Part shown: positions 47,943 through 62,032 of the stretch, piece by piece | How the letters are laid out: every line of letters starts with the position of its first letter | Position numbering within the stretch: position 1 is the first letter of the stretch | From: Streptomyces syringium | Lineage (GTDB): Bacteria > Actinomycetota > Actinomycetes > Streptomycetales > Streptomycetaceae | Direction of reading: 5' to 3' | NCBI RefSeq assembly: GCF_017876625.1 | Contig: NZ_JAGIOH010000001.1 | Coordinates: 6,717,501-6,781,500, forward strand | Length of the DNA: 64,000 nucleotides | Translations under genes and position numbers: made by a program | Notes under the pieces: model-generated | Databases searched by the model: none | What the model saw: the letters and a program-made list of their open reading frames with translations, nothing else | Told to the model about the DNA's origin: nothing

Positions 47943-48308
47943 GTGCAGACGCCGTCCGCAACCCCGTCGACCAGCCGCGTCCTCGAGCACCCCGCCCGCG
48001 AGGACATCCGGCTCGAGAGCGTGCTGCACGCCCTGTCGGACCCCATGCGCCTGCTGGTCGTGCGGTCCCTGGCGGCGGCCGGGACCGAGCAGTCCTGCTC
48101 CGTCCTGGAACTCCCCGTGAGCAAGTCGACGACCACCCACCACTTCCGCGTGCTCCGCGAGTGCGGCGTGGTCAGCCAGATCTACCGGGGCACGGCGAAG
48201 ATGAACGCCCTGCGCCGGGACGACCTGGAGGCGCTGTTCCCGGGGCTCCTCGACAGCGTTCTCACCGCCGCCGACCGGCAGGCCGAGCGGCTGGGGGAGC
48301 ACGGCTGA
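47943..48308 (+). CDS. ArsR family helix-turn-helix regulator
   Basis: 121 residues, a winged helix: LESVLHALSDPMRLLVVRSL, ELPVSKSTTTHHFRVLRECG (recognition helix) and a wing at VSQIYRGTAKMNALRRDDL. There is no metal-binding ELCVCDL motif; one Cys (SCSV) lies just before the recognition helix, so sensing may be redox- or electrophile-based. GTG 47943 follows GAGGAGCC. The divergent ene-reductase is the likely target. Confidence 0.88.
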   Translation: MQTPSATPSTSRVLEHPAREDIRLESVLHALSDPMRLLVVRSLAAAGTEQSCSVLELPVSKSTTTHHFRVLRECGVVSQIYRGTAKMNALRRDDLEALFPGLLDSVLTAADRQAERLGEHG

Positions 48309-51769: not shown

Positions 51770-53020
51770 TCAGTCGAGGGACGCCTTGCCGTGCTCGCCG
51801 TGGAGTCCGGTCCACCGCACCCCCGCGGCGTACCACTGGGCGAGTTCCTGGGCGCGCCGCTCGACCTCCTGGTCGTCGGCGCCGGTCAGGACGTAAGCCG
51901 CCAGGTAGTGAGCGGACTTCACGCCCCCTTGGTAGGCCGTGCCCACCGTGGCCCGCAGGCGTTCCTCCACCACGAACGGCGGGGGGTTCTCGGGCAGGGC
52001 CGCGAGTGTGCCCCGTTCGGGATAGAAGACGACCCAGCCCGCGCTGTGCCCGGGCGCGACGCCGTGGATCCTGGCATCGGTCAGGGTCTCGGGGGCGACC
52101 TGGGCCCGGAACCACTGCTCGTCGAGGTTGAAGCCGGTGGCGGCGTGGATGGCGGGGGCGGTCAGCGCGCCACCGGTCCTGCTGCCGATCTCGCACAGCA
52201 CGAGGCGGTCGTCGGGCGTGTGGAAGACCTCCAGGTGGAAGGCGGCGCACTCGGGGGTGGGCAGCGCGCCCAGGACCTTCCGCGCATAGCCGATGAGCCG
52301 GTCCGTCAGCGGGTGGTCGCGGGTGAGCTGTGCCGAGCCCAGGTATATGCCGTCGTGGAAGGACAGGCAGTCGTTGAGGTAGCGCGAGACGAACGTGGCC
52401 ACCGGCTCGCCCGCCGCCACCAGCCCGTCCACCACGTACATCCGACCCTCCACGAACCGCTCCACCTCGGCGTGTTCGGGCAGGCCTTCGGCGAGGAGCC
52501 GGGCCAGGTCCGCGGGGCCGCGCAGCACCTGGGTGCCGGTGGAGCCGGAACCCAGGGCCGGTTTCACCACCACGGGGTAGCCGTGCTCGCGGACGAATCC
52601 GAAGAGGTCGAAGTCCACGCGTACGGGGGCGAACTCCGGTACGTCGAGGCCGCTTTCGCGCACCAGGGTCTTCATATGGACCTTGTCGCGGAACGCGAGG
52701 GTGCTGGCGAAGTCCTGGCCCGGCACGCCGAGCAGCTCCCGCAGCCGCGCCGCGCGCAGCAGATCGCCCTCCATGCGGGCGATCACCGCACTGGGCGGCG
52801 TGTGCTCGGCGAGTTCGAGGGCCGCCCGCTCCGCGTCGCCGCCCTGGCGGAAGTCGGGGAGGGAGACGGCACCCGGAATGTGGCTGTACTGCGGGAATTT
52901 GGCCTCGGAGACCAGGAGGTGCGGCCGTACGCCCGTGTCAGCCGCCCACTTGTCGTACGGAGTGTCCGCATAGTCGCTGTCCACGAAAGCCAGAACGCTC
53001 CGTTCCGTTCCAGTTCTCAC
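51770..53020 (-). CDS. ATP-grasp ligase, cluster-associated
   Basis: 416 residues. The N-terminal domain opens RTGTERSVLAFVDSDYADT. The ATP-grasp core has VVVKPALGSGSTGTQVL near residue 147 (ATP-binding loop), FHLEVFHTPDDRLVLCEIGSR near residue 260 (metal-binding Glu residues; the usual Asn is Ser) and a C-terminal domain. This is the amide/peptide ligase type of ATP-grasp enzyme (carboxylate plus amine, ATP to ADP). GGAGG six bases before GTG 53020 fixes the start. It is divergent from the response regulator, and its promoter shares the CCGAGGTAAAGCC-N40-CTAG arrangement with the main operon, which is the best evidence that it belongs to the pathway. Confidence 0.82.
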   Translation of the reverse strand: MRTGTERSVLAFVDSDYADTPYDKWAADTGVRPHLLVSEAKFPQYSHIPGAVSLPDFRQGGDAERAALELAEHTPPSAVIARMEGDLLRAARLRELLGVPGQDFASTLAFRDKVHMKTLVRESGLDVPEFAPVRVDFDLFGFVREHGYPVVVKPALGSGSTGTQVLRGPADLARLLAEGLPEHAEVERFVEGRMYVVDGLVAAGEPVATFVSRYLNDCLSFHDGIYLGSAQLTRDHPLTDRLIGYARKVLGALPTPECAAFHLEVFHTPDDRLVLCEIGSRTGGALTAPAIHAATGFNLDEQWFRAQVAPETLTDARIHGVAPGHSAGWVVFYPERGTLAALPENPPPFVVEERLRATVGTAYQGGVKSAHYLAAYVLTGADDQEVERRAQELAQWYAAGVRWTGLHGEHGKASLD

Positions 53021-53074
53021 CGGCACCTCCCAGGACTCCTGACCAGCACGCACCGGCTGCGTGCGGCCTCAAGG

Positions 53075-53131
53075 CTAGGGGTGTGAGCCCAGGTCAGGGC
53101 CGTCCTGGCGGATACCTCGGCTTTACCTCGG
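53075..53131 (-). promoter_or_regulatory. ATP-grasp promoter with shared activator element
   Basis: On the minus strand CCGAGGTAAAGCC (53131-53119) is followed by 40 nt and CTAG (53078-53075) within the -10-like TAGCCT. GAGGTA recurs 11 bp later, a one-turn direct repeat. No good -35 is visible, which fits activator dependence. The same element, spacing and CTAG occur before the operon at 54262. Confidence 0.65.
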
Positions 53132-53210
53132 AAAGATTGTTCTGCTCATTCTGACGGTGTAGGAAGAAAGGGAACCGACGATTCTGATCTTGCGCATGCA
53201 CTGGGGTTAA

Positions 53211-53224
53211 GTTGAAGATTCAAC
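53211..53224. promoter_or_regulatory. Palindrome upstream of the response regulator
   Basis: GTTGAAGATTCAAC, two perfect 6-bp arms with a 2-nt centre, in an A/T-rich stretch 104 nt before the regulator start. A candidate autoregulatory site. Confidence 0.4.
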
Positions 53225-53327
53225 GAATTCTCGGCGGCTCGGCCCGACCGGCCGAGCCGCCGGGCGGTGGTGCCGTGTGCGCGGTCCGAGCGCCCCGGAA
53301 TCCGCCCGTGGCGGCGGGAGCGGCACC

Positions 53328-54026
53328 GTGATCGACGTGCTGGTCGTGGACGACGACTTCTATGTGGCCGAGGTCAATTCCCGCTACGTGTCCCGCATCC
53401 CGGGATTCCGTGTCACGGGCCGGGCCCACACGGCCGCCGAGGCGCTGATGGCGGTCGAACGCGGCGGTGTCGATCTGATCCTGCTCGACCACTACCTTCC
53501 CGACGAGGACGGGCTGCAGCTGGTGCGCAGACTCCGTCGGCTCGGTCACGAGACCGACGTCATCATGGTCTCGGCGGCCCGCGGGGCGGAGCAGGTGAGC
53601 TCGGCGCTGCGCCACGGCGTTCTGCAGTACCTGGTCAAACCCTTCGGTTTCGCTGCGCTGCGGGCCAAGTTGACGTCCTACGGCCAGATGCGGGACCGCC
53701 TCGACCGATTAGACTGCCTGGGACAGGGCGAGGTGGACGAGATCTTCGGTACGCTCCACGCGCCGGTCCAGACGGAAGTGCCGCCCAAGGGGTATTCGGC
53801 GGCGACCACCGAGCACATCCGCGAGGCGCTGCTCCGGGCCGGCAAGGCGCTGTCCGCGCAGGAGGTGGCCGACCTCACCGGGGTGAGCCGCTCCACCGCG
53901 CAGCGCTACCTCAAGCACCTGCAGGAGCGCGGCAGCATCCAACTCGCCCTGAAATACGGGGGAGCCGGCCGCCCCGAGCACCACTACGAGTCCGCGCACG
54001 GCGCCTCCCGCGCCGGCCCCCGCTGA
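53328..54026 (+). CDS. CitB/DcuR-type response regulator, orphan
   Basis: 232 residues. The receiver domain has acidic pocket DDDFYVAEVN, phospho-acceptor Asp in LILLDHYLPDEDGLQL (residue about 53), Ser/Thr switch VSAARGA and Lys in YLVKPFGFAAL. The C-terminal HTH has QEVADLTGVSRSTAQRYLKH and a tail with RPEHHYES, the CitB/DpiA/DcuR type. These normally pair with a CitA/DcuS-like sensor kinase encoded alongside; none is in the window. GGGAG eight bases before GTG 53328 supports the start. It sits between the two promoters that share CCGAGGTAAAGCC, so it is the best candidate activator of the cluster. Confidence 0.87.
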   Translation: MIDVLVVDDDFYVAEVNSRYVSRIPGFRVTGRAHTAAEALMAVERGGVDLILLDHYLPDEDGLQLVRRLRRLGHETDVIMVSAARGAEQVSSALRHGVLQYLVKPFGFAALRAKLTSYGQMRDRLDRLDCLGQGEVDEIFGTLHAPVQTEVPPKGYSAATTEHIREALLRAGKALSAQEVADLTGVSRSTAQRYLKHLQERGSIQLALKYGGAGRPEHHYESAHGASRAGPR

Positions 54027-54058
54027 GCGCACACCGCGAGGGCGCCCCCGGCGTCACC

Positions 54059-54088
54059 AGGCCCCACGCCCCGAAGGGTGCGGGGCCT
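54059..54088 (+). terminator. Terminator after the response regulator
   Basis: AGGCCCC and GGGGCCT plus an inner CGCCC/GGGTG pair form a 12-13 bp stem with one mismatch and a CGAA loop, 32 nt after the regulator stop. It separates the regulator from the operon that follows. Confidence 0.65.
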
Positions 54089-54116
54089 GTGCCGTTCCGC
54101 CGGTGTCGGCATGACG

Positions 54117-54130
54117 TTACCGCGCGGTAA
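54117..54130. promoter_or_regulatory. 14-bp perfect palindrome upstream of the cluster operon
   Basis: TTACCGCGCGGTAA is fully self-complementary and lies 23 nt upstream of the shared activator element. It looks like a dimeric regulator site, TetR-like in character. Confidence 0.5.
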
Positions 54131-54153
54131 GCAAAAGAAGCAGAAGCAGCTTC

Positions 54154-54213
54154 CCGAGGTAAAGCCACAGTGCACGCAGAAACGTGTCTCCCTCTCGGCT
54201 GCTGATCTAGTGT
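54154..54213 (+). promoter_or_regulatory. Cluster operon promoter with shared activator element
   Basis: CCGAGGTAAAGCC (54154-54166) is followed by exactly 40 nt and CTAG (54207-54210) inside TAGTGT, a plausible -10 of the TAGNNT class. The start codon is 51 nt further. The match in sequence and spacing to the ATP-grasp promoter makes a shared activator likely. Confidence 0.65.
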
Positions 54214-54261: not shown

Positions 54262-55632
54262 ATGGGCGTGACACGCCGTACGCTCCGTCTTGGAGCCTTT
54301 CTCCTGGCCCCCGGCTACCACGTCGCCTCCTGGCGTCACCCCACGGCCCGCGCGAACGGCGGCCTGGACTTCGCTCACTACCGCGAGCTCCTGCACACCG
54401 CCGAGCGCGGCAAGTTCGACATGTTCTTCGTCGCCGATGGGGTGGGCATCCGCACCCCGTACAACAACGCCGACGAGCTGAGCCGATGGGGTCGCTTCCT
54501 CCAGTTCGACCCGCTGACGCTCCTGTCCGCCCTCGCCGTGCACACCACGCACATCGGTCTCGCGGCGACCGCGTCGACGACGTACAACGAACCGTTCCAC
54601 ATCGCGCGGAAGTTCGCCTCGATCGACCACCTCAGCGCCGGCCGGTCCGCCTGGAACATCGTCACCTCGGTGACGGACGCCGAGGCGAAGAACTTCAACC
54701 GCGACTCCCAGCCCGACCACGCGTCGCGCTACCACCGGGCCCGGGAGTTCATGGAGGTCGTCACCGGCCTGTGGGACAGCTGGGACGACGACGCGTTCGG
54801 GTACGACAAGGAGTCCGGGCGCTACTTCGATCCCGACGGACTGCACGTCCTCGACCACAAGGGCGAGCACTTCTCGGTGCGCGGTCCGCTCAACGTGGCC
54901 CGCCCGCCCCAGGGTTACCCCGTGCTCATCCAGGCGGGCGCCTCCGCGGACGGCCAGGACTTCGCCGCCCGCTGGGCGGAGGTGGTCTTCACCGCCGCCC
55001 AGACGCTGGAGGAGGGCCGGACGTTCTACCGCGGCATCAAGCAGCAGGCCGCCGCCTACGGGCGCGACGCCGACCAGATGAAGGTGATGCCCGGTCTCTT
55101 CCCGGTGATCGGCCGCACCCGCGCCGAGGCCGAGGACAAGTACGCGGTACTGCAGGAACTGGTCGACCCGGTGGTCGGGCTGGGGCTGCTCACCCAGCTC
55201 CTCGGCGACATCGACATCTCGGGCTTCCCGCTGGACGAGCCGCTGCCCGAACTGCCGCCGACCCAGGGCAGCACCAGCCGCCAGCAGCTCGTCTACGACA
55301 AGGCGCGCCGCGAGGGCCTGACGGTCAGGGAGCTGTACCAGTCCCTGACCGGGGGCCGCGGGCACCGCGTCGTCATCGGCACCCCCCAGGACGTCGCCGA
55401 CCTCATGGAGGAGTGGTTCACCGGGGAGGCCGCCGACGGCTTCAACGTCATGCCGCCCGTGCTCCCCGAGGGCCTGGACGACTTCGTCGACCTCGTGGTG
55501 CCCGAGCTGCAGCGCCGGGGCCTGTTCCGCACCGAGTACGAGAGCACCACCCTGCGCGGAAACCTCGGCATCGACCGGCCCGCCCGTGGCGCCGCGGCCG
55601 AACTCCCGCTCAGCAGCACGGGCCCGTCCTAA
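54262..55632 (+). CDS. LLM-class flavin monooxygenase (NtaA/SnaA/DszA family)
   Basis: 456 residues: LRLGAFLLAPGYHVASWRHP at the start, DMFFVADGVG, HTTHIGLAATASTTYNEPFH, AGRSAWNIVTSVTDAEAKNF and YPVLIQAGASADGQDFAARW. This is the two-component FMNH2-dependent monooxygenase group that includes nitrilotriacetate, EDTA and dibenzothiophene-sulfone monooxygenases. It needs free reduced FMN from a separate reductase, and none lies in the visible cluster. In this setting it could oxidise an amine, imine or sulfur-containing intermediate. GGAG eight bases before ATG 54262; first gene of the operon, 21 nt before the aminotransferase. Confidence 0.88.
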   Translation: MGVTRRTLRLGAFLLAPGYHVASWRHPTARANGGLDFAHYRELLHTAERGKFDMFFVADGVGIRTPYNNADELSRWGRFLQFDPLTLLSALAVHTTHIGLAATASTTYNEPFHIARKFASIDHLSAGRSAWNIVTSVTDAEAKNFNRDSQPDHASRYHRAREFMEVVTGLWDSWDDDAFGYDKESGRYFDPDGLHVLDHKGEHFSVRGPLNVARPPQGYPVLIQAGASADGQDFAARWAEVVFTAAQTLEEGRTFYRGIKQQAAAYGRDADQMKVMPGLFPVIGRTRAEAEDKYAVLQELVDPVVGLGLLTQLLGDIDISGFPLDEPLPELPPTQGSTSRQQLVYDKARREGLTVRELYQSLTGGRGHRVVIGTPQDVADLMEEWFTGEAADGFNVMPPVLPEGLDDFVDLVVPELQRRGLFRTEYESTTLRGNLGIDRPARGAAAELPLSSTGPS

Positions 55633-55653
55633 GTCCAGGAGTGAGCACCCCCC

Positions 55654-56823
55654 ATGCCTTCCTTTGCCAGAACCCTCAGCGAGATACCGCCCTCCCCGCT
55701 GGTGACCGTCGACCGGCTGCTGCGCTCCGGCGCGCACACCGAACCGGTGCCGTTGCAGCAGGGCAAGACCGTCTTCGAGCCCTGCGCGCGGCCGACCACC
55801 TGGGAGCGCGCGGAGTTCGGGATCGCGGCCCACGAACACGCGCCGCCCGCCGGAGTCCCCGCGCTGCGCTCGGCGTTCGCCGACGCGGCGAGCCGACGCC
55901 GGGGCACCCCTGTCGACCCCGGGCAGGTCCTGGTGACGAGCGGCGCCACCCACGCCATCGCCGTGACCCTGCACGCCATCCTGGGTCCGGGCGACGAGGT
56001 CCTCATCCTGTCCCCGCAGTGGCTCTTCGCGACCGGCCTCGTGTGGGCGGCCGGCGGGACGCCGCGCGAGGTGCCGGTCTTCCTGGAACTCAGCGAGGAC
56101 CCCGGCTTCGACTTCATCGCCGCGATCGAGCGGGCCGTGGGCCCGCGCACCCGGGCGATCTACTTCAACAACCCCAACAACCCGACGGGCTTCCGCCTGG
56201 ACGAGCGTGCCCTGGGCGCGCTCGTCGAGCTCGCCGCGCGGCACGACCTGTGGCTGATCGCCGACAACGCGTACGAGAACTACGACTTCAGCGACGGCGG
56301 CTTCCTCGACACGGCGGCCGTTCCCGGCGCGGCGGAGCGCACCTTCTCGGTGCACAGCTGCAGCAAGACGTACGCGATGCCCGGCGCCCGTGTGGGCCAT
56401 CTGATCTCGCCGCCCGGCGCGGAGGAGATCCTCACCAAGTGGTCGCTGCACACGCTGTACTCGGTCTCCACGGCCGCGCAGTACACCGCGTTCCGGGCGC
56501 TCGCCACACCCGCCGACGAGCTGGCGCGGCGCCGGGCGGCGGCCGAGCGCGCATGGCGACTCGCCGACGCCGCCCTGGAGATCCCGCACACCCGCGTCAC
56601 CGGCGGGCTCTACACCTTCCTCGACCTGAGCCGCTACGGCGACGGCGCGGAGTTCGTGCGCCGCTGCGCCGAGGCCGGCGTGGGACTCGCGCCGGGCCGG
56701 GTGTTCGGCGCCCACTGCGACGGCTGGGCCCGGCTCTGCTTCACCGCGGCACCCGAAGAGGTCGTCACGGACGCCATCGGCCGTATCAACAAGATCTACT
56801 GGGAGGGCGGCCGTGACCGTTGA
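55654..56823 (+). CDS. Class I/II PLP aminotransferase
   Basis: 389 residues of fold type I: PAGVPALRSAFADAASRRRG, VLVTSGATHAIAVTLHAILG, IYFNNPNNPTGFRLDERALG (cofactor and substrate-binding Asn), DNAYENYDFSD and the PLP Lys in HSCSKTYAMPGARVG near residue 238. It transfers amino groups between a 2-oxo acid and an amino acid and resembles kynurenine/aspartate aminotransferases. Next to the PanB homologue it may aminate or deaminate a hydroxymethylated 2-oxo acid. The PanB gene starts 11 nt before its stop. Confidence 0.9.
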   Translation: MPSFARTLSEIPPSPLVTVDRLLRSGAHTEPVPLQQGKTVFEPCARPTTWERAEFGIAAHEHAPPAGVPALRSAFADAASRRRGTPVDPGQVLVTSGATHAIAVTLHAILGPGDEVLILSPQWLFATGLVWAAGGTPREVPVFLELSEDPGFDFIAAIERAVGPRTRAIYFNNPNNPTGFRLDERALGALVELAARHDLWLIADNAYENYDFSDGGFLDTAAVPGAAERTFSVHSCSKTYAMPGARVGHLISPPGAEEILTKWSLHTLYSVSTAAQYTAFRALATPADELARRRAAAERAWRLADAALEIPHTRVTGGLYTFLDLSRYGDGAEFVRRCAEAGVGLAPGRVFGAHCDGWARLCFTAAPEEVVTDAIGRINKIYWEGGRDR

Positions 56824-57787
56824 CACCACCGTGGCCAGGCCGGCGGCGGCTGCCGCGCTGGCTCCGTATCTGCACCGGTACGACAGCCCGGCGCAACTCG
56901 GACTCAAGATCAACGCGTATCGGGGTTACGAGGTGGAGGGCCTCGCCGAGGCGCTGCGCGCGCCGGACCTGCACGACGCCCCCGTCGAATGCGTGATGGT
57001 CGGCGACTCGTACTTCATGACACACCTGGGCCGCGACGGCACCACGCTGACCGGCGACGCCGAGCAGGAGTGGGGCCTCGCCACCCTCACCGGCCTGGTG
57101 GCCGAGGTGCGCAAGGCGCTGGACGCCGCGTTCCCGGCCGCCAGGCGGCCGTTCCTGCTCGCCGACCTGCCGGACGGCACGACCCGCACCCCCGCCACGG
57201 CCCGGGCCGCCGCCGACCGGTTCGTCGCGGCCGGCGCGGACGCCGTCAAGATCGAGGTGGCGGGCGAGGGCGAGTTCGACTGCATCGAGGCGGTGGCCCG
57301 CACCGGCACACCCACCCTGGCGCACCTCGGCTACACCCCGCAGAGCGGCGGCCTGGCCCGGCACGGCGACGCCCTGGACGGCGCGCTCGCGCTCTTCGCG
57401 CAGGCCCGCCGTGCCCGGGCCGCGGGCGGCTGCGGCCTGATCATCGAGATGGTCAGCGAGGCGGTGAACCAGGCGCTCAGCCGGCCGCACCCCGAAGGCC
57501 TTCCGCTGTACTCGGTGTTCAGCGGCCGGGCCCGCTGGGGCGGCCAGAGCCTCAATCTGTGGGATGCCGTCGTACGCCCCGTCCCGGGCGGCCGCTACTT
57601 CCCGCCCACCCCGGTGATCGACGCGGCCGAGGTGCCCGACCGGTACACCCCGGAGCTGATCGCCGACCGCATGCGCGAACTGCTGCGGCTCAGCGTCGCC
57701 GGCTGGTTCCCGCTCTCCCCGCGCACCGCCCTGACCCCCCGTGAGACGGCCGAGATCACCGGCATCGACCCTTGGAGTGCCTCATGA
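56813..57787 (+). CDS. Ketopantoate hydroxymethyltransferase (PanB) homologue
   Basis: 324 residues, longer than typical PanB. Conserved points: LKINAYRGYEVEGLAEAL; ECVMVGDSYFMTHLG with the first metal Asp; LLADLPDGTT with the second Asp; AVKIEVAGEGEF; HLGYTPQSGG; catalytic Glu in GLIIEMVSEAV; and SGRARWGGQSLNLWD. PanB adds a hydroxymethyl group from methylene-tetrahydrofolate to 2-oxoisovalerate. The placement inside a metabolite operon, with no other pantothenate genes, suggests a paralogue that hydroxymethylates a pathway 2-oxo acid. GTG 56813 has GGGAGGG upstream. Its stop overlaps the next start (ATGA). Confidence 0.85.
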   Translation: MTVDTTVARPAAAAALAPYLHRYDSPAQLGLKINAYRGYEVEGLAEALRAPDLHDAPVECVMVGDSYFMTHLGRDGTTLTGDAEQEWGLATLTGLVAEVRKALDAAFPAARRPFLLADLPDGTTRTPATARAAADRFVAAGADAVKIEVAGEGEFDCIEAVARTGTPTLAHLGYTPQSGGLARHGDALDGALALFAQARRARAAGGCGLIIEMVSEAVNQALSRPHPEGLPLYSVFSGRARWGGQSLNLWDAVVRPVPGGRYFPPTPVIDAAEVPDRYTPELIADRMRELLRLSVAGWFPLSPRTALTPRETAEITGIDPWSAS

Positions 57788-59109
57788 CCACCGCCGAACC
57801 GCTCACCGCAGGGCCGGTGACCCCCGGATCGGACACGGCCGTCTTCGACGAGCTCGAATCGGCCGTACGCACCTACTGCCGGCGCTTTCCCGCCGTCTTC
57901 ACACGGGCGGCGGGAGCTCGCATGTGGGACGCGGAAGGCCGCGAGTACATCGACTTCCTGTCGGGCGCCGGAGCGCTCAACTACGGGCACAACCCGCCCG
58001 AGGTGCGCGCCGCCCTCATCGAGTACCTGCAGGCCGACGGGCCGGTCCACGGCCTCGACCTGCACACCGGCGCCAAGGCCGCGTTCCTGCACCGCTTCCG
58101 CGAGGTGGTGCTCGCGCCGCGCGGGCTCGACCACCGGGTGCAGTTCACCGGGCCGACCGGCACCAACGCCGTCGAGGCGGCGTTCAAGACGGCCCGCCGG
58201 GTCACCGGACGCACCGACATCATCGCCTTCACCGGCGGCTTCCACGGCCTCTCGCTCGGCGCGCTCGCCGCGTCCGCCACCTCGTTCAAGCGCGGGGCGG
58301 CCGGGGTGCCGCTCGGTCACGTCACGCGGATGCCGTACGAGGGGTACGCGGGCGAAGGCGTCGACACCATCGACTACCTCACCCGCATGCTCGACGACCC
58401 GGGCAGCGGCATCGACCTGCCCGCGGCCTTCGTGGTGGAGACCGTGCAGGGCGAGGGCGGCCTCGCGGCGGCGAGCGCGCCGTGGCTGCGCAGGCTCGCC
58501 GACGTGGCGCGCGAGCGGGGCATCCTGCTGATCGTCGACGACATCCAGGCGGGATGCGGGCGCACCGGCACCTTCTTCAGCTTCGAAGAGGCGGGCATCG
58601 TCCCCGATCTGATCTGCCTGTCCAAGTCCATCAGCGGCTTCGGCCTGCCGATGGCCCTCGTCCTGATCCGCCCCGAGCTCGACCAGCTCGGCCCCGGCGA
58701 GCACAGCGGCACCTTCCGCGGCAACAACCTGGCCTTCGTCACCGCCACGGCCTGCCTGGACCGCTGGGCGGATCCGGAGTTCGCCCCGCAGGTGCGGCGC
58801 AACGCCGCCGCCCTGGAGGAGCGGCTCACCGAACTGGCCGCCACCTTCGCCGACCTCGGCTGCACCGTGCTGGGCCGCGGCCTGATCCGCGGTCTCGGCT
58901 TCACCGACCCCGCCCTCGCGGACCGCGTGTCACGGGCCGCCTTCACCCGCGGGCTCCTGGTGGAGACCTCCGGCGCCCGCGGCCAGGTCCTCAAGATCAT
59001 GCCGCCGATCGTGGCGGACGCCGAAGAGCTGGCGCCCGGCCTCGCCCTCCTCGCCGACGCCATCGCGTCGGCCGCACACGACCACGTATCCGAAGGGGAC
59101 CCGCGTTGA
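57784..59109 (+). CDS. Class III aminotransferase, EctB-like (diaminobutyrate--2-oxoglutarate type)
   Basis: 441 residues. YIDFLSGAGALNYGHNPPEV, VQFTGPTGTNAVEAAFKTAR, AFTGGFHGLSLGALAASATS, ETVQGEGGLAAASAPWLRRL, DDIQAGCGRTGTFFSFEEAG and the PLP Lys in ICLSKSISGFGLPMALVL follow the pattern of EctB, which converts aspartate semialdehyde plus glutamate to L-2,4-diaminobutyrate. No ectA or ectC is present, so it is not an ectoine locus. The likely product is a diamino acid or other omega-amine, a natural substrate for the N-oxygenase encoded directly downstream. ATG 57784 overlaps the PanB stop. Confidence 0.88.
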   Translation: MTTAEPLTAGPVTPGSDTAVFDELESAVRTYCRRFPAVFTRAAGARMWDAEGREYIDFLSGAGALNYGHNPPEVRAALIEYLQADGPVHGLDLHTGAKAAFLHRFREVVLAPRGLDHRVQFTGPTGTNAVEAAFKTARRVTGRTDIIAFTGGFHGLSLGALAASATSFKRGAAGVPLGHVTRMPYEGYAGEGVDTIDYLTRMLDDPGSGIDLPAAFVVETVQGEGGLAAASAPWLRRLADVARERGILLIVDDIQAGCGRTGTFFSFEEAGIVPDLICLSKSISGFGLPMALVLIRPELDQLGPGEHSGTFRGNNLAFVTATACLDRWADPEFAPQVRRNAAALEERLTELAATFADLGCTVLGRGLIRGLGFTDPALADRVSRAAFTRGLLVETSGARGQVLKIMPPIVADAEELAPGLALLADAIASAAHDHVSEGDPR

Positions 59110-60074
59110 GCATCGCCGAGCACGAGCAGACCATCGAGGACGGCCACGCGCACGGCATCGACGAGACCGTGCTGCGCCGGATCGCCGACTCCTGGCCGCG
59201 GCGCGCCACGATCCGCACCGACCTGGACCAGATATCGGAGCCGGAGGAGTACGACGAGCGGCTGCCGGACTACCCGGAGCACCTGCTGCCGTTCGCCGAG
59301 CACCCCCTGTACCTCGCGGCCACGCCCGAGCAGCGCCAGAAGGTCCTCACCATGGCCTGGCTGGTCTACAACGAGCGGGTCATCGCGGCCGAGGAGTACG
59401 TCGCCAACCCGACCTTCGCCATGATCATGCACGGCGCCTTTCCCGGGGCCGACGGCATCCAGCTCAAGCGCGCCGTCCAGCAGACGCATGTGGACGAGGT
59501 CTGGCACACCTACATGCACATGATCGCGATGCAGCGCACCCGCGAGGTCCGGCAGATCACCGGCGAGCCCGCCTACCCGCACACGGTCACCTACCGCCGG
59601 CTCCTCGAAGCCGACGCGAAGGCGTCGGAGCGCTGGGAGCGCGACCTGCTGAAGCTGGTGTGGACGACCGTCTCGGAGATCAGCGTCAACGCCTACCTGG
59701 AGCTGCTCTCCCGCGACAAGACCGTCCAGCCGCTGCACGCCCTGGTGCCCCGGCTGCACGCCCGCGACGAGTCCGCGCACTCCTCCGTCATGGTCGAGGT
59801 CGCCAAGGCGCTGTACGTGCACATGAACGCCGAACAGCGCCGTACCTTCGTCGACTCGCTGCCCAAGGCGCTGCACGCCTTCGTGGAGCAGGACTTCGCG
59901 GTGTGGCCCGGCATCCTGCGGGCGGCCGGGTTCGAGCAGGCCGACGAGATCGTCGAGGACTGCCGCCGCCAGGCCGGCACCGGCCTGCTGGTGCGCGACT
60001 TCTCCGGGGTACGGCGCATCGTGCGCGAGATGGAGCTCGAGGACCAGGTCGACTTCGACTTCGGGGCCGAGTGA
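59106..60074 (+). CDS. AurF-type diiron N-oxygenase
   Basis: 322 residues from a TTG start that overlaps the aminotransferase stop (TTGA), with AAGGGG eight bases upstream. The diiron ligands of AurF, p-aminobenzoate N-oxygenase, are recalled as E101, E136, H139, E196, H223, E227 and H230. Here E96, E131, H134, E191, H218, E222 and H225 match all seven at a constant offset of five: ERVIAAEEYV, HVDEVWHTYMH, VSEISVN and HARDESAHSS. The enzyme should use O2 to turn an amine into a hydroxylamine or nitro group. Tight coupling to the EctB-like gene suggests that its amine product is the substrate. The electron donor is unknown. Confidence 0.87.
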   Translation: MSIAEHEQTIEDGHAHGIDETVLRRIADSWPRRATIRTDLDQISEPEEYDERLPDYPEHLLPFAEHPLYLAATPEQRQKVLTMAWLVYNERVIAAEEYVANPTFAMIMHGAFPGADGIQLKRAVQQTHVDEVWHTYMHMIAMQRTREVRQITGEPAYPHTVTYRRLLEADAKASERWERDLLKLVWTTVSEISVNAYLELLSRDKTVQPLHALVPRLHARDESAHSSVMVEVAKALYVHMNAEQRRTFVDSLPKALHAFVEQDFAVWPGILRAAGFEQADEIVEDCRRQAGTGLLVRDFSGVRRIVREMELEDQVDFDFGAE

Positions 60075-60075
60075 C

Positions 60076-61308
60076 GTGAAGCTCACCGCGGGCGGGCGCA
60101 GACTCGCCGCCGCAGCCCTCGTCCAGTCGCTCGGCATCGGCCTGTTCATGGCGAGCTCCATGGCGTACTTCACCCGGCAGGTGGACCTCTCGGCGAACCA
60201 GGTGGCCTCCGGGCTCGCCCTCGCCGGTGTCGTGGCCCTGGGGATCTCGCTGCTCGGCGGGGTCCTCGCCGACCGGTACGGGGCACGGCGGGTACTCGCC
60301 GCGGTGTATCTGGGGCGGGGGGTGTGCTGTGCGGCGTACGTCTTCGTCACGGACTTCTGGCAGTTCATGGTGGTGACACTGTGCGCGGTGGCGTGCGACC
60401 GGGCGGGGCCGCCGGTGCTCCAGGCACTGGTCGCCGTGGCCGTGCCGGAGCGCCAGGAGCGCACCCGCCTGCTCGCGGTGGTCAACGTCGTACGCAACTG
60501 CGGACTCGGGGTCGGCGCGATGGCGGCCGGCGTGGCGCTCGCCAGCGACACCCAGGCCGCCTACCGGGTCACGCTGGTCGCCATCGGGCTCGCCTTCCTC
60601 GGCGGTGCGGTGCTCGTGCTGCGGGTGTCCGAGCTGACCGCGCCGACAGCGGCCGAGGCCGCCCCGGAGGGCACGGCCGAAGGACCGGTCAAGGGCCGGG
60701 TGCTGCCCGACGCGCGCTATCTGACGCTGACCGGGCTCAACTTCCTGCTGTTCTTCTTCGACACGATGCTGCTGGTCGCGATGCCGGTGTGGATCCTGGA
60801 GCACACGGACGCCCCGCGGGCCACCGTGTCGGTGCTGTTCGCGCTGAACACCGTGCTCGTCGTGGTGCTGCAGATCCCGGTCAGCCGGCTGGCGACCGGC
60901 CAGCGGCGCACCACCCGGATGCTGACGTGGACGGGCGCCGTACTCGCGGTGAGCAGTCTGTGCTTCGCCGCGTCCGGCTCCGTCGCGGGCGGGCCCGCGG
61001 TGGCGTGGCTGGCCGCCGCCGTGGTGACGCTGTCGCTGGCCGAGGTGATCGCCAACTCCGCGGTGTGGGACCTGTCCATAGCTCTGGCCCCCGAGGAGCA
61101 GCGCGGACGCTATCTGTCCGTCTTCAATCTGAGCGTGGCCGGGCAGCGGGTCCTCGGCCCCGTGATGGTCACCGGGCTGCTGCTCGGCTCGGGTTCGCTC
61201 GGCTGGGTGGTGGCCGCGGGGGTGCTCGTGGTGGCGGGCTTCGCGGCCGAGCGGGTCGCCCGCGCGGCGGGGGAGCGGATACGCGCGGAGGTGGCCGTCC
61301 ATGCCTGA
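60076..61308 (+). CDS. MFS transporter
   Basis: 410 residues with about 12 hydrophobic helices: AAALVQSLGIGLFMASSMAY at the N-terminus, GVVALGISLLGGVLADRYGA with the MFS loop 2-3 DRYGARR motif, and NFLLFFFDTMLLVAMPVWIL. It resembles drug/metabolite exporters of the DHA type and is the likely exporter or self-resistance pump of the cluster. GTG 60076 is one base after the oxygenase stop. Its stop overlaps the next start by 8 bp. Confidence 0.87.
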   Translation: MKLTAGGRRLAAAALVQSLGIGLFMASSMAYFTRQVDLSANQVASGLALAGVVALGISLLGGVLADRYGARRVLAAVYLGRGVCCAAYVFVTDFWQFMVVTLCAVACDRAGPPVLQALVAVAVPERQERTRLLAVVNVVRNCGLGVGAMAAGVALASDTQAAYRVTLVAIGLAFLGGAVLVLRVSELTAPTAAEAAPEGTAEGPVKGRVLPDARYLTLTGLNFLLFFFDTMLLVAMPVWILEHTDAPRATVSVLFALNTVLVVVLQIPVSRLATGQRRTTRMLTWTGAVLAVSSLCFAASGSVAGGPAVAWLAAAVVTLSLAEVIANSAVWDLSIALAPEEQRGRYLSVFNLSVAGQRVLGPVMVTGLLLGSGSLGWVVAAGVLVVAGFAAERVARAAGERIRAEVAVHA

Positions 61309-62032
61309 GCTGTCGGTCCTGGTCTTCGCGTCCCTCGCGGTGTTCCTCGGCGCGCTGGTCCAGGGCAGCCTGGGAGTGGGTCTCGCCCTGGTGTCGGCGC
61401 CGGTGGTGCAGATCGCCGCGCCGAGTCTCATGCCGGGGTCCCTGCTCCTGGTCGCCGCCGTCCTGGCCGCGCTCGGGGCGGTCCGGGAGATCTCCCACAC
61501 CGACTGGTACGGCGTCTCCTGGGCGATGGCCGGGCGGATCGTCGGCACGGTGGCGGCCTCGTACGTGATCCTCGTGGTCTCGGTGTCGACGCTCGACCTG
61601 CTCTCGGCGGGCATCACCCTGGGCGTCGTCTCGCTGCTCGCCTTCGACCCGGCCAGGCTGCCCAGGAACCGGGGCACCCTGATCGCCTCCGGCGCCGTGG
61701 CGGGCCTCACCGGGACGACGTCGTCCATCGGCGGGCCGTTCATCGCGCTCGTCTACCACCGGGAGCCCGGGCCCACGGTCCGCGGCACCCTCAGCGTCTT
61801 CTACACGGCCGGGACGCTGCTCTCGCTCGGCTCCCTCACCGTCGTGGGCCGCCTGCCGGGCAACCAACTGGCCTTCGGGGCCATGCTGCTGCCCGCGGTG
61901 GTGGCCGGATTCGCGCTGTCGGGGCCGGTCCGGCGGCGGGTGGACGGCGGCGGCCGGATGCGCGGAGCGGTGCTCGTCCTCGCGGTCGTCGCGGCGCTCG
62001 TCCTCCTCGTCCGGGGGCTGGCCGCCATCTGA
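61301..62032 (+). CDS. TauE/SafE-family membrane transporter
   Basis: 243 residues with about eight membrane helices. It opens ELSVLVFASLAVFLGALVQG and has GVGLALVSAPVVQIAAPSLM plus a repeat half SGAVAGLTGTTSSIGGPFIA, the TauE/SafE (sulfite/sulfonate/organic acid exporter) pattern. Such a gene inside a biosynthetic operon is unusual; it may export sulfite or a small anionic by-product or product. The 8-bp overlap with the MFS gene shows that it is in the same operon. It is the last gene before a 101-nt gap. Confidence 0.85.
   Translation: MPELSVLVFASLAVFLGALVQGSLGVGLALVSAPVVQIAAPSLMPGSLLLVAAVLAALGAVREISHTDWYGVSWAMAGRIVGTVAASYVILVVSVSTLDLLSAGITLGVVSLLAFDPARLPRNRGTLIASGAVAGLTGTTSSIGGPFIALVYHREPGPTVRGTLSVFYTAGTLLSLGSLTVVGRLPGNQLAFGAMLLPAVVAGFALSGPVRRRVDGGGRMRGAVLVLAVVAALVLLVRGLAAI

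Follow-up and report, generated by a model that had tools for sequence, protein, structure and literature searches.

Two promoters flank a response regulator gene in Streptomyces syringium, one leading leftward into an ATP-grasp gene and the other rightward into an operon, and the question arises whether both answer to a single activator and which protein this activator would be. A first-pass annotation of the 64,000 nucleotides analysed here, to which we refer as the window, had noted that both promoters carry the 13-bp element CCGAGGTAAAGCC and had proposed that one activator unites them. From our point of view, it is likely that the element lies within the operator of the neighbouring CitB/DcuR-type regulator, that this regulator activates both units, and that regulator and operator are of duplicated origin, with the partner kinase in the course of being shed. 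The features on which this reading is built are collected in Table 1.

Table 1. Features of the two-promoter locus, in window coordinates
Feature	Position	Strand	Basis or remark
ATP-grasp ligase, predicted target of operator A	51770..53023	-	start picked by conserved GGAGG and frame
Proposed -10 TAGCCT, ATP-grasp promoter	53072..53077	-	CTAG at 53075-53078; conservation
Putative operator A, upstream of ATP-grasp gene	53103..53155	-	conservation; outer limits read from offsets
CitA-type kinase remnant, 39 codons, in frame	53212..53331	+	H-box and ATPase boxes gone
CitB/DcuR-type response regulator (receiver and HTH)	53328..54026	+	GTG start overlaps TGA of kinase stub
Putative operator B, upstream of LLM operon	54130..54182	+	holds the 13-mer at 54154-54166; conservation; limits read from offsets
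Proposed -10 TAGTGT, LLM operon promoter	54208..54213	+	CTAG at 54207-54210; conservation
NtaA/DmoA-family flavin (LLM) monooxygenase, first operon gene under operator B	54262..55632	+	above NCBIfam cut-off
PLP-dependent aminotransferase class I/II	55654..56823	+	best NCBIfam model GntC, below cut-off
PanB-like (ketopantoate hydroxymethyltransferase) homologue	56813..57787	+	homology
EctB-type diaminobutyrate aminotransferase	57772..59109	+	above cut-off
AurF-like di-iron N-oxygenase	59109..60074	+	below cut-off
MFS transporter	60076..61308	+	homology
TauE/SafE-like transporter	61301..62032	+	homology

The shared element and its spacing

The 13-mer lies at 53119-53131 on the minus strand and at 54154-54166 on the plus strand, where the first-pass annotation had placed it, and the sequence agrees with its statement that CTAG follows exactly 40 nt further on at both promoters. 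Of the 51-54 nt that it had given from CTAG to the start codons, the 51 is found on both sides (GTG 53023 of the ATP-grasp gene, ATG 54262 of the LLM monooxygenase gene) and the 54 on neither. Within the whole genome (7,715,887 bases in two contigs), the exact element occurs at two places only, both flanking the regulator gene, and the many copies at unrelated places that would speak against a common regulator are not seen there. With up to one mismatch, the genome holds ten places (two exact, eight with one mismatch), as many as the reversed control; a degenerate 26-bp form with up to three mismatches recovers both window sites at zero and two others at three mismatches, with none in the control. 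The suggested search for the 13-mer followed by N38-42 and CTAG, carried out in 392 genomes of the genus, returned two places in the own genome, one in G191, on the ATP-grasp side, and no others.

The assertion that such a match is very unlikely by chance could not be upheld for the 13-mer alone. The window contains 1136 repeated 13-mer pairs compared with 495-664 in 20 Markov shuffles, and 4 of the 20 shuffles contained at least one pair whose two members have CTAG at the same distance (up to 100 nt); the window has one such pair, that of the two promoters. As 13-mer repeats abound and shuffled sequences mimic the pair together with its CTAG, the 13-mer taken alone is weak as proof. The match between the two promoters, however, spans 28 bp (AGCAGAAnnAnCTTnCCGAGGTAAAGCC), with a score of 18 versus a null maximum of 14.5 (0 of 300 shuffles), and it is this longer match together with the cross-species conservation, not the 13-mer by itself, which leads us to regard the element as real.

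Conservation across species

Related loci were found in S. albospinus (L014), S. netropsis (L015), S. silaceus (L016), S. huasconensis (L017), Streptantibioticus silvisoli (L018) and Streptomyces sp. TRM49041 (L042); the genomes G191 and G725 are probably the same as those of L014 and L015, respectively, and were not counted as separate cluster loci. Operator and -10 are kept at both promoters in the window and in L014, L015, L016, L017 and L018. A blind comparison of the two promoters was clear in four of these six loci (the window, L014, L015 and L016) and not clear in L017, where 17 of 300 shuffles scored as high, or in L018 (175 of 300). In the assembly of S. huasconensis, several cluster genes are split between frames, probably through sequencing errors.

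Among the five closest loci, the window included, 29 of 31 columns of the operator core are invariant at promoter A and 24 of 31 at promoter B, and the -10 block is invariant in 10 of 11 columns at both. The stretch between operator and -10 retains 29/37 (A) and 24/37 (B) invariant columns, the outer intergenic DNA 62/111 and 89/178. The idea that the 13-mer represents the whole element was rejected, as some 30 bp are conserved and the relatives deviate at the B site. Judging from these alignments, the 13-mer belongs to a longer operator, a point absent from the first-pass annotation. The B sites of L014-L017 read CGCGG where the window has CGAGG, so that the full identity of the two 13-mers is partly specific to this strain. 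Likewise, "exactly 40" turns out to be a loose rule, since the gap is 40 nt at promoter A (39 in L018) and 40 or 39 at promoter B; over 14 sites it measures 38-40 nt in 13 and 58 nt in one.

The latter value belongs to the seventh locus, L042, in which the ATP-grasp and LLM genes are divergent, with a single intergenic region between them. The operator that they share there is a nearly perfect dyad of the same motif and lies 3.3 kb from the regulator gene. Because the operator is kept there despite the changed gene order, it goes with its two targets, and we consider this arrangement the best single support for the predicted regulon. On the LLM side a -10-like CTACGGT follows after 38 nt, while on the ATP-grasp side the first CTAG/CTAC, a CTAC, is the one that misfits the spacing rule. 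With operator and -10 kept in the relatives and a common operator in L042, the proposal of one activator for the ATP-grasp gene and the operon is well supported in silico, and a small regulon made up of these two units is probable.

Operator architecture

GCANAA-like direct repeats were found at the offsets -9, 0, +18 (18/19 in the cluster) and +36/37 in 13 cluster and 29 paralog sites; of 50 unique composites, 8 away from two-component genes had been dropped and 42, with a length of 74-78 bp, were kept. Operator A has its repeats at -9, 0, about +18 and +36, the last two being weak in the window, and the 13-mer spans the +18 repeat, which reads GGTAAA in the cluster operators and GCAGAA in the paralog type.

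Scored as mean matches out of five, with a background of 1.27 (sd 0.28 for cluster and 0.18 for paralog sites), the cluster sites reach 4.0, 5.0, 2.9-3.0 and 3.4 at -9, 0, +18/19 and +36/37 and the paralog sites 5.0, 5.0, 4.3 and 3.4, where offset 0 is 5 by construction and the averaged sites share descent. The inner repeat is not outstanding in the cluster, as offset +3 scores 3.08 there versus 2.92/3.0 at +18/19. An inverted word at +12 scores 3.38 in cluster and 3.69 in paralog sites, partly owing to a TT fixed by the search pattern. Compared with this best inverted word, the direct repeats score 5.0 and 4.28 versus 3.69 in the paralogs and 4.0 and 3.38 versus 3.38 in the cluster, and since they are only somewhat above the inverted word in the latter, the direct-repeat architecture is a preference and not proof. 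Two other descriptions were tried and rejected, namely a plain inverted repeat, which matches 17 of 20 positions in register in L042 but only 5 to 9 of 20 in the window sites, and an inner dyad TTTN7-8AAA, which occurs in only part of the sites. The operator appears to consist of an array of GCANAA-like direct repeats whose spacing to a -10 of the TAG/TAC type is fixed.

When the first T of the -10 is counted as -12, the repeats come to lie at about -89, -80, -62 and -44, and no good -35 was seen on inspection of either window promoter. Activators commonly bind at such positions where a promoter lacks a good -35. By inspection, the repeat array upstream of the -10 would represent an activator geometry that fits the Class I type.

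The same operator type beside other CitA/CitB systems

The composite pattern AGCANAANNNNNTTN{50,58}CTASNNT, which was constructed after the window sites and the paralog sites, the own one included, had been seen, matches three places in the own genome (control 0), namely both window promoters and a paralogous CitA/CitB locus (L100), the site of which is at G000:C1:5713689-5713764; as all three were known beforehand, what counts there is that no further ones turned up. In 199 genomes of the genus it gave 27 matches versus 25 in the reversed control (counted from the table), so that the numbers alone are uninformative and only location tells. The 198 other genomes account for 24 matches, two of which are the cluster in G191; the remaining 22 come from cluster-free genomes, where 14 have CitA/CitB-type genes as neighbours and 8 have none (flank of about 1.5 kb). 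A slightly wider composite, scanned in 53 of 56 regulator loci, was present in 22, always between -3.6 and +1.2 kb from the regulator (reversed control 0), and was not found in 31 of the 53. An unrelated but similar element, AGCAAAAAnGGGTTGG ... inverted repeat ... TCCTACTCT, was also caught by the composite in four genomes (G118:C1:6525952, G136:C1:5494654, G159:C1:6812844 and G192:C9:56).

Seventeen regulator loci share the exact left half and have a divergent promoter of the form GCACAACAGGGTTT ... AGAAAG (with small variants) ... CTAGCCT (CTAGCGT in L036 and L049), with a gap of 39-41 nt to CTAG, and by alignment the start of the gene behind it is alike in 17 of 17. For L027, the one target taken to Pfam, this gene encodes an ABC transporter ATPase, accompanied by a permease and an NMT1-type binding protein. 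Streptomyces CitA/CitB-like systems facing such a transporter (L027, L026 and similar loci, and the own paralog L100) carry the same operator type as the cluster, a recurrence that the first-pass annotation had not noted, and the regulators of the L027 type are about 60% identical to that of the cluster. L027 and L100 differ from the cluster in that their kinases are complete with Cache and PAS and that the target is a transporter instead of biosynthetic genes. The ATG lies only about 8 nt past CTAGCCT (L027:8087-8174 and alike in the 17 loci), so that the transporter mRNAs may be leaderless.

The response regulator

The regulator combines a receiver (Pfam Response_reg, 80 bits) with an HTH of the DpiA/DcuR type, the combination by which membership of the citrate family was judged; several HTH models match, among them HTH_64 (DpiA-like) with 21.6 bits, under the cut-off of 27. 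Its best NCBIfam models are DcuR (141.5 bits) and DpiA (122.4), with the next at 59.5; the former two fall short of their equivalog cut-offs of 262 and 264. The window regulator and 40 of 43 tree rows have the phospho-acceptor Asp within LLDHYLP; L041 and L054 show variants of this motif and L044 gave no LLD match. The nearest solved sequences are the receiver domains 5lwk and 5lwl, which we take to be those of MaeR. The regulator most likely works like a CitB-type activator.

Relatives at E 1e-60 or better exist in 341 of 392 genomes of the genus, cluster copies included, and, own genome and G191 apart, identity does not exceed 63% among the matches listed. In a tree of 43 of 54 rows (L045 and L056-L065 failed the motif/length filter, and L066-L069 were left out), the seven cluster regulators form one clade (100/98), to which the own-genome paralog is next (98/89). 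Pairwise dN/dS amounts to 0.15-0.25 in six pairs of four loci; in these tests the regulator is under purifying selection, and it travels with the cluster.

Loss of the partner kinase

The regulator is an orphan in the window, as the first-pass annotation had said without seeing the cause, because its partner kinase gene carries an in-frame deletion in this strain and is reduced to a stub of 39 codons. Compared with the L016 kinase gene, the stub is 555 bp shorter, its start at TTG 53212 being joined to the C-terminal end; in a protein search it matches kinase residues 199-235 at 70% identity, and its TGA overlaps the regulator GTG at 53328 (one assembly). A kinase gene precedes the regulator in L014-L018 and L042, with the L017 copy frameshifted; in the five readable copies, which are 218-235 codons long, the kinase stop meets or overlaps the regulator start. 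A relocated kinase copy was considered and rejected: at E 1e-5 or better, the protein search of the own genome gave 18 matches, the stub among them and the paralog kinase as the best (57%), and no intact cluster kinase. Cache (PF17203) has three matches in the own genome, one of which is the paralog kinase.

In the four cluster kinases examined by Pfam (L014, L015, L018 and L042), HATPase is present in all four and SPOB_a, under cut-off, only in L018; no Cache or PAS domain was found in any of them. The paralog kinases of L027 and L100, with 572-574 aa, possess sCache, PAS, SPOB_a and HATPase. As the cluster kinases do not show Cache, PAS, SPOB_a and HATPase together, the cluster is not a complete CitA/CitB system. 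In S. albospinus (L014:9303-9974) an Arg replaces the H-box His, and the kinase dN/dS is 1.01 for L014/L015, 0.335 for L014/L016 and 0.175 for L015/L016; the L017 kinase was omitted since many genes of that assembly are frameshifted. The S. albospinus kinase gene is probably a pseudogene in the making. Stub, lost His and the dN/dS contrast together point to kinase decay in at least two lineages that keep the regulator. The kinases can be arranged from full ones in the paralogs through sensor-less ones with the boxes in place (L015, L016, L018 and L042) to the drifting L014 copy without its His and to the window copy gutted by deletion.

Target genes

A citrate or C4-dicarboxylate regulon would be recognised by targets for di/tricarboxylate transport or metabolism, and none are seen; because the predicted targets are ATP-grasp, LLM, aminotransferase, PanB-like, AurF-like, MFS and TauE genes, this is not a citrate regulon. 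The PanB-like gene occurs in 2 of 394 genomes of the class (E 1e-70), the second being G725, and a search of the plasmid collection with the PanB-like protein gave no hit at E 1e-30. Among the matches listed, no described cluster with this gene set was found in the literature. The segments 54262-62032 and 51770-53023 together form a rare biosynthetic cluster, the product of which is perhaps an N-oxidised amino acid or dipeptide.

Discussion

From the sequences and their conservation we infer that the repeat arrays of both promoters are most likely bound by the regulator, which would thereby switch on the ATP-grasp gene along with the LLM-aminotransferase-PanB-EctB-AurF-MFS-TauE operon. Because both units would be activated by one regulator, we propose that the cluster is one two-promoter regulon. 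With regard to its origin, the direction of change is inferred: regulator and operator would have been derived by duplication from a CitA/CitB-type two-component system that elsewhere faces an NMT1-type ABC transporter, the partner kinase in the cluster would first have lost its Cache/PAS sensor, and the kinase of this strain would then have lost its catalytic core by the in-frame deletion that preserved the overlap with the regulator start. Phosphate, if needed, could be supplied by the paralog kinase (57% identical to the cluster kinase), by another Cache-type protein or by small molecules, or might not be involved at all. We can tentatively imagine that the regulator has become independent of a cognate kinase, being either unphosphorylated or phosphorylated by small molecules or a foreign CitA-type kinase, and that the loci represent a natural series from a two-component system to a one-component, cluster-bound activator.

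The system resembles CitA/CitB of Corynebacterium glutamicum, an actinobacterial two-component system of the citrate family, where, according to a 2012 review, CitB acts as an activator that binds the promoters of transport genes, including one encoded divergently from citAB, and the exact CitB DNA motif had not been identified at that time (PMC3353115). The C. glutamicum system has its kinase and acts on citrate transporters, whereas here the kinase is lost and the targets look biosynthetic (PMC3353115). The predicted direct repeats recall MaeK/MaeR of Lactobacillus casei, likewise a system with a citrate-family regulator; MaeR is described as recognising three direct repeats, TTATT(A/T)AA, upstream of its target, whereas the repeats predicted here are GCANAA-like (PMC5457438). 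There, the kinase MaeK is present and, according to the authors, phosphorylation of MaeR at Asp 54 is needed in vivo, in contrast to the window with its lost kinase (PMC5457438). Aor1 of Streptomyces is described as an orphan response regulator tied to secondary metabolism; compared with it, the loss of the kinase is visible here as a remnant, with intermediate stages in relatives (PMC5733086). Among the matches listed, no described operator of this kind for Streptomyces was found in the PMC literature, and the main text of PMC9739842 contains none of the names CitB, DcuR and DpiA. The present analysis proposes a DNA operator for CitB-type regulators in Streptomyces.

It could be argued that in vivo the main protein on the operators is the paralogous CitB-type regulator (G000:C1:5711184-5711849), the cluster regulator being a helper or on its way out, as the paralog neighbours the third copy of the composite in the genome and has a complete Cache/PAS kinase, unlike the cluster regulator, whose own kinase is gone. 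We regard this as improbable, since the cluster regulator is under purifying selection in the pairwise tests and moves with the cluster as one clade, and since the cluster operators have drifted from the paralog type at the inner repeat, with GGTAAA for GCAGAA. Still less probable is that the element is the operator of another regulator, for which the ArsR-like gene at 47943-48308 of the window would be a candidate, or a repressor site, its closeness to the response regulator gene being incidental: the same composite recurs by CitB-type regulator genes in cluster-free genomes, and the position of the array, upstream of the -10, is that of an activator. That 13-mer and CTAG are a mere coincidence in GC-rich DNA, as the abundant 13-mer repeats and the 4 of 20 shuffles might suggest, is hardly credible in view of the conservation of both sites in six loci, the A/B match beyond the 13-mer, the genomic scarcity and the paralog sites.

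The loci offer a natural series in which the kinase is lost while the response regulator is conserved. If the regulator has become independent of its kinase, this series may show a stepwise change from a two-component to a one-component system during which operator and target promoters stay fixed. One regulon joining the ATP-grasp gene to the N-oxygenase operon would also help to delimit a rare biosynthetic cluster.

As a minor observation, Streptomyces sp. TRM49041 has two further genes beside the cluster (L042:12008-15138), one for a second ATP-grasp protein of greater distance (36%) and one for another LLM monooxygenase (71%).
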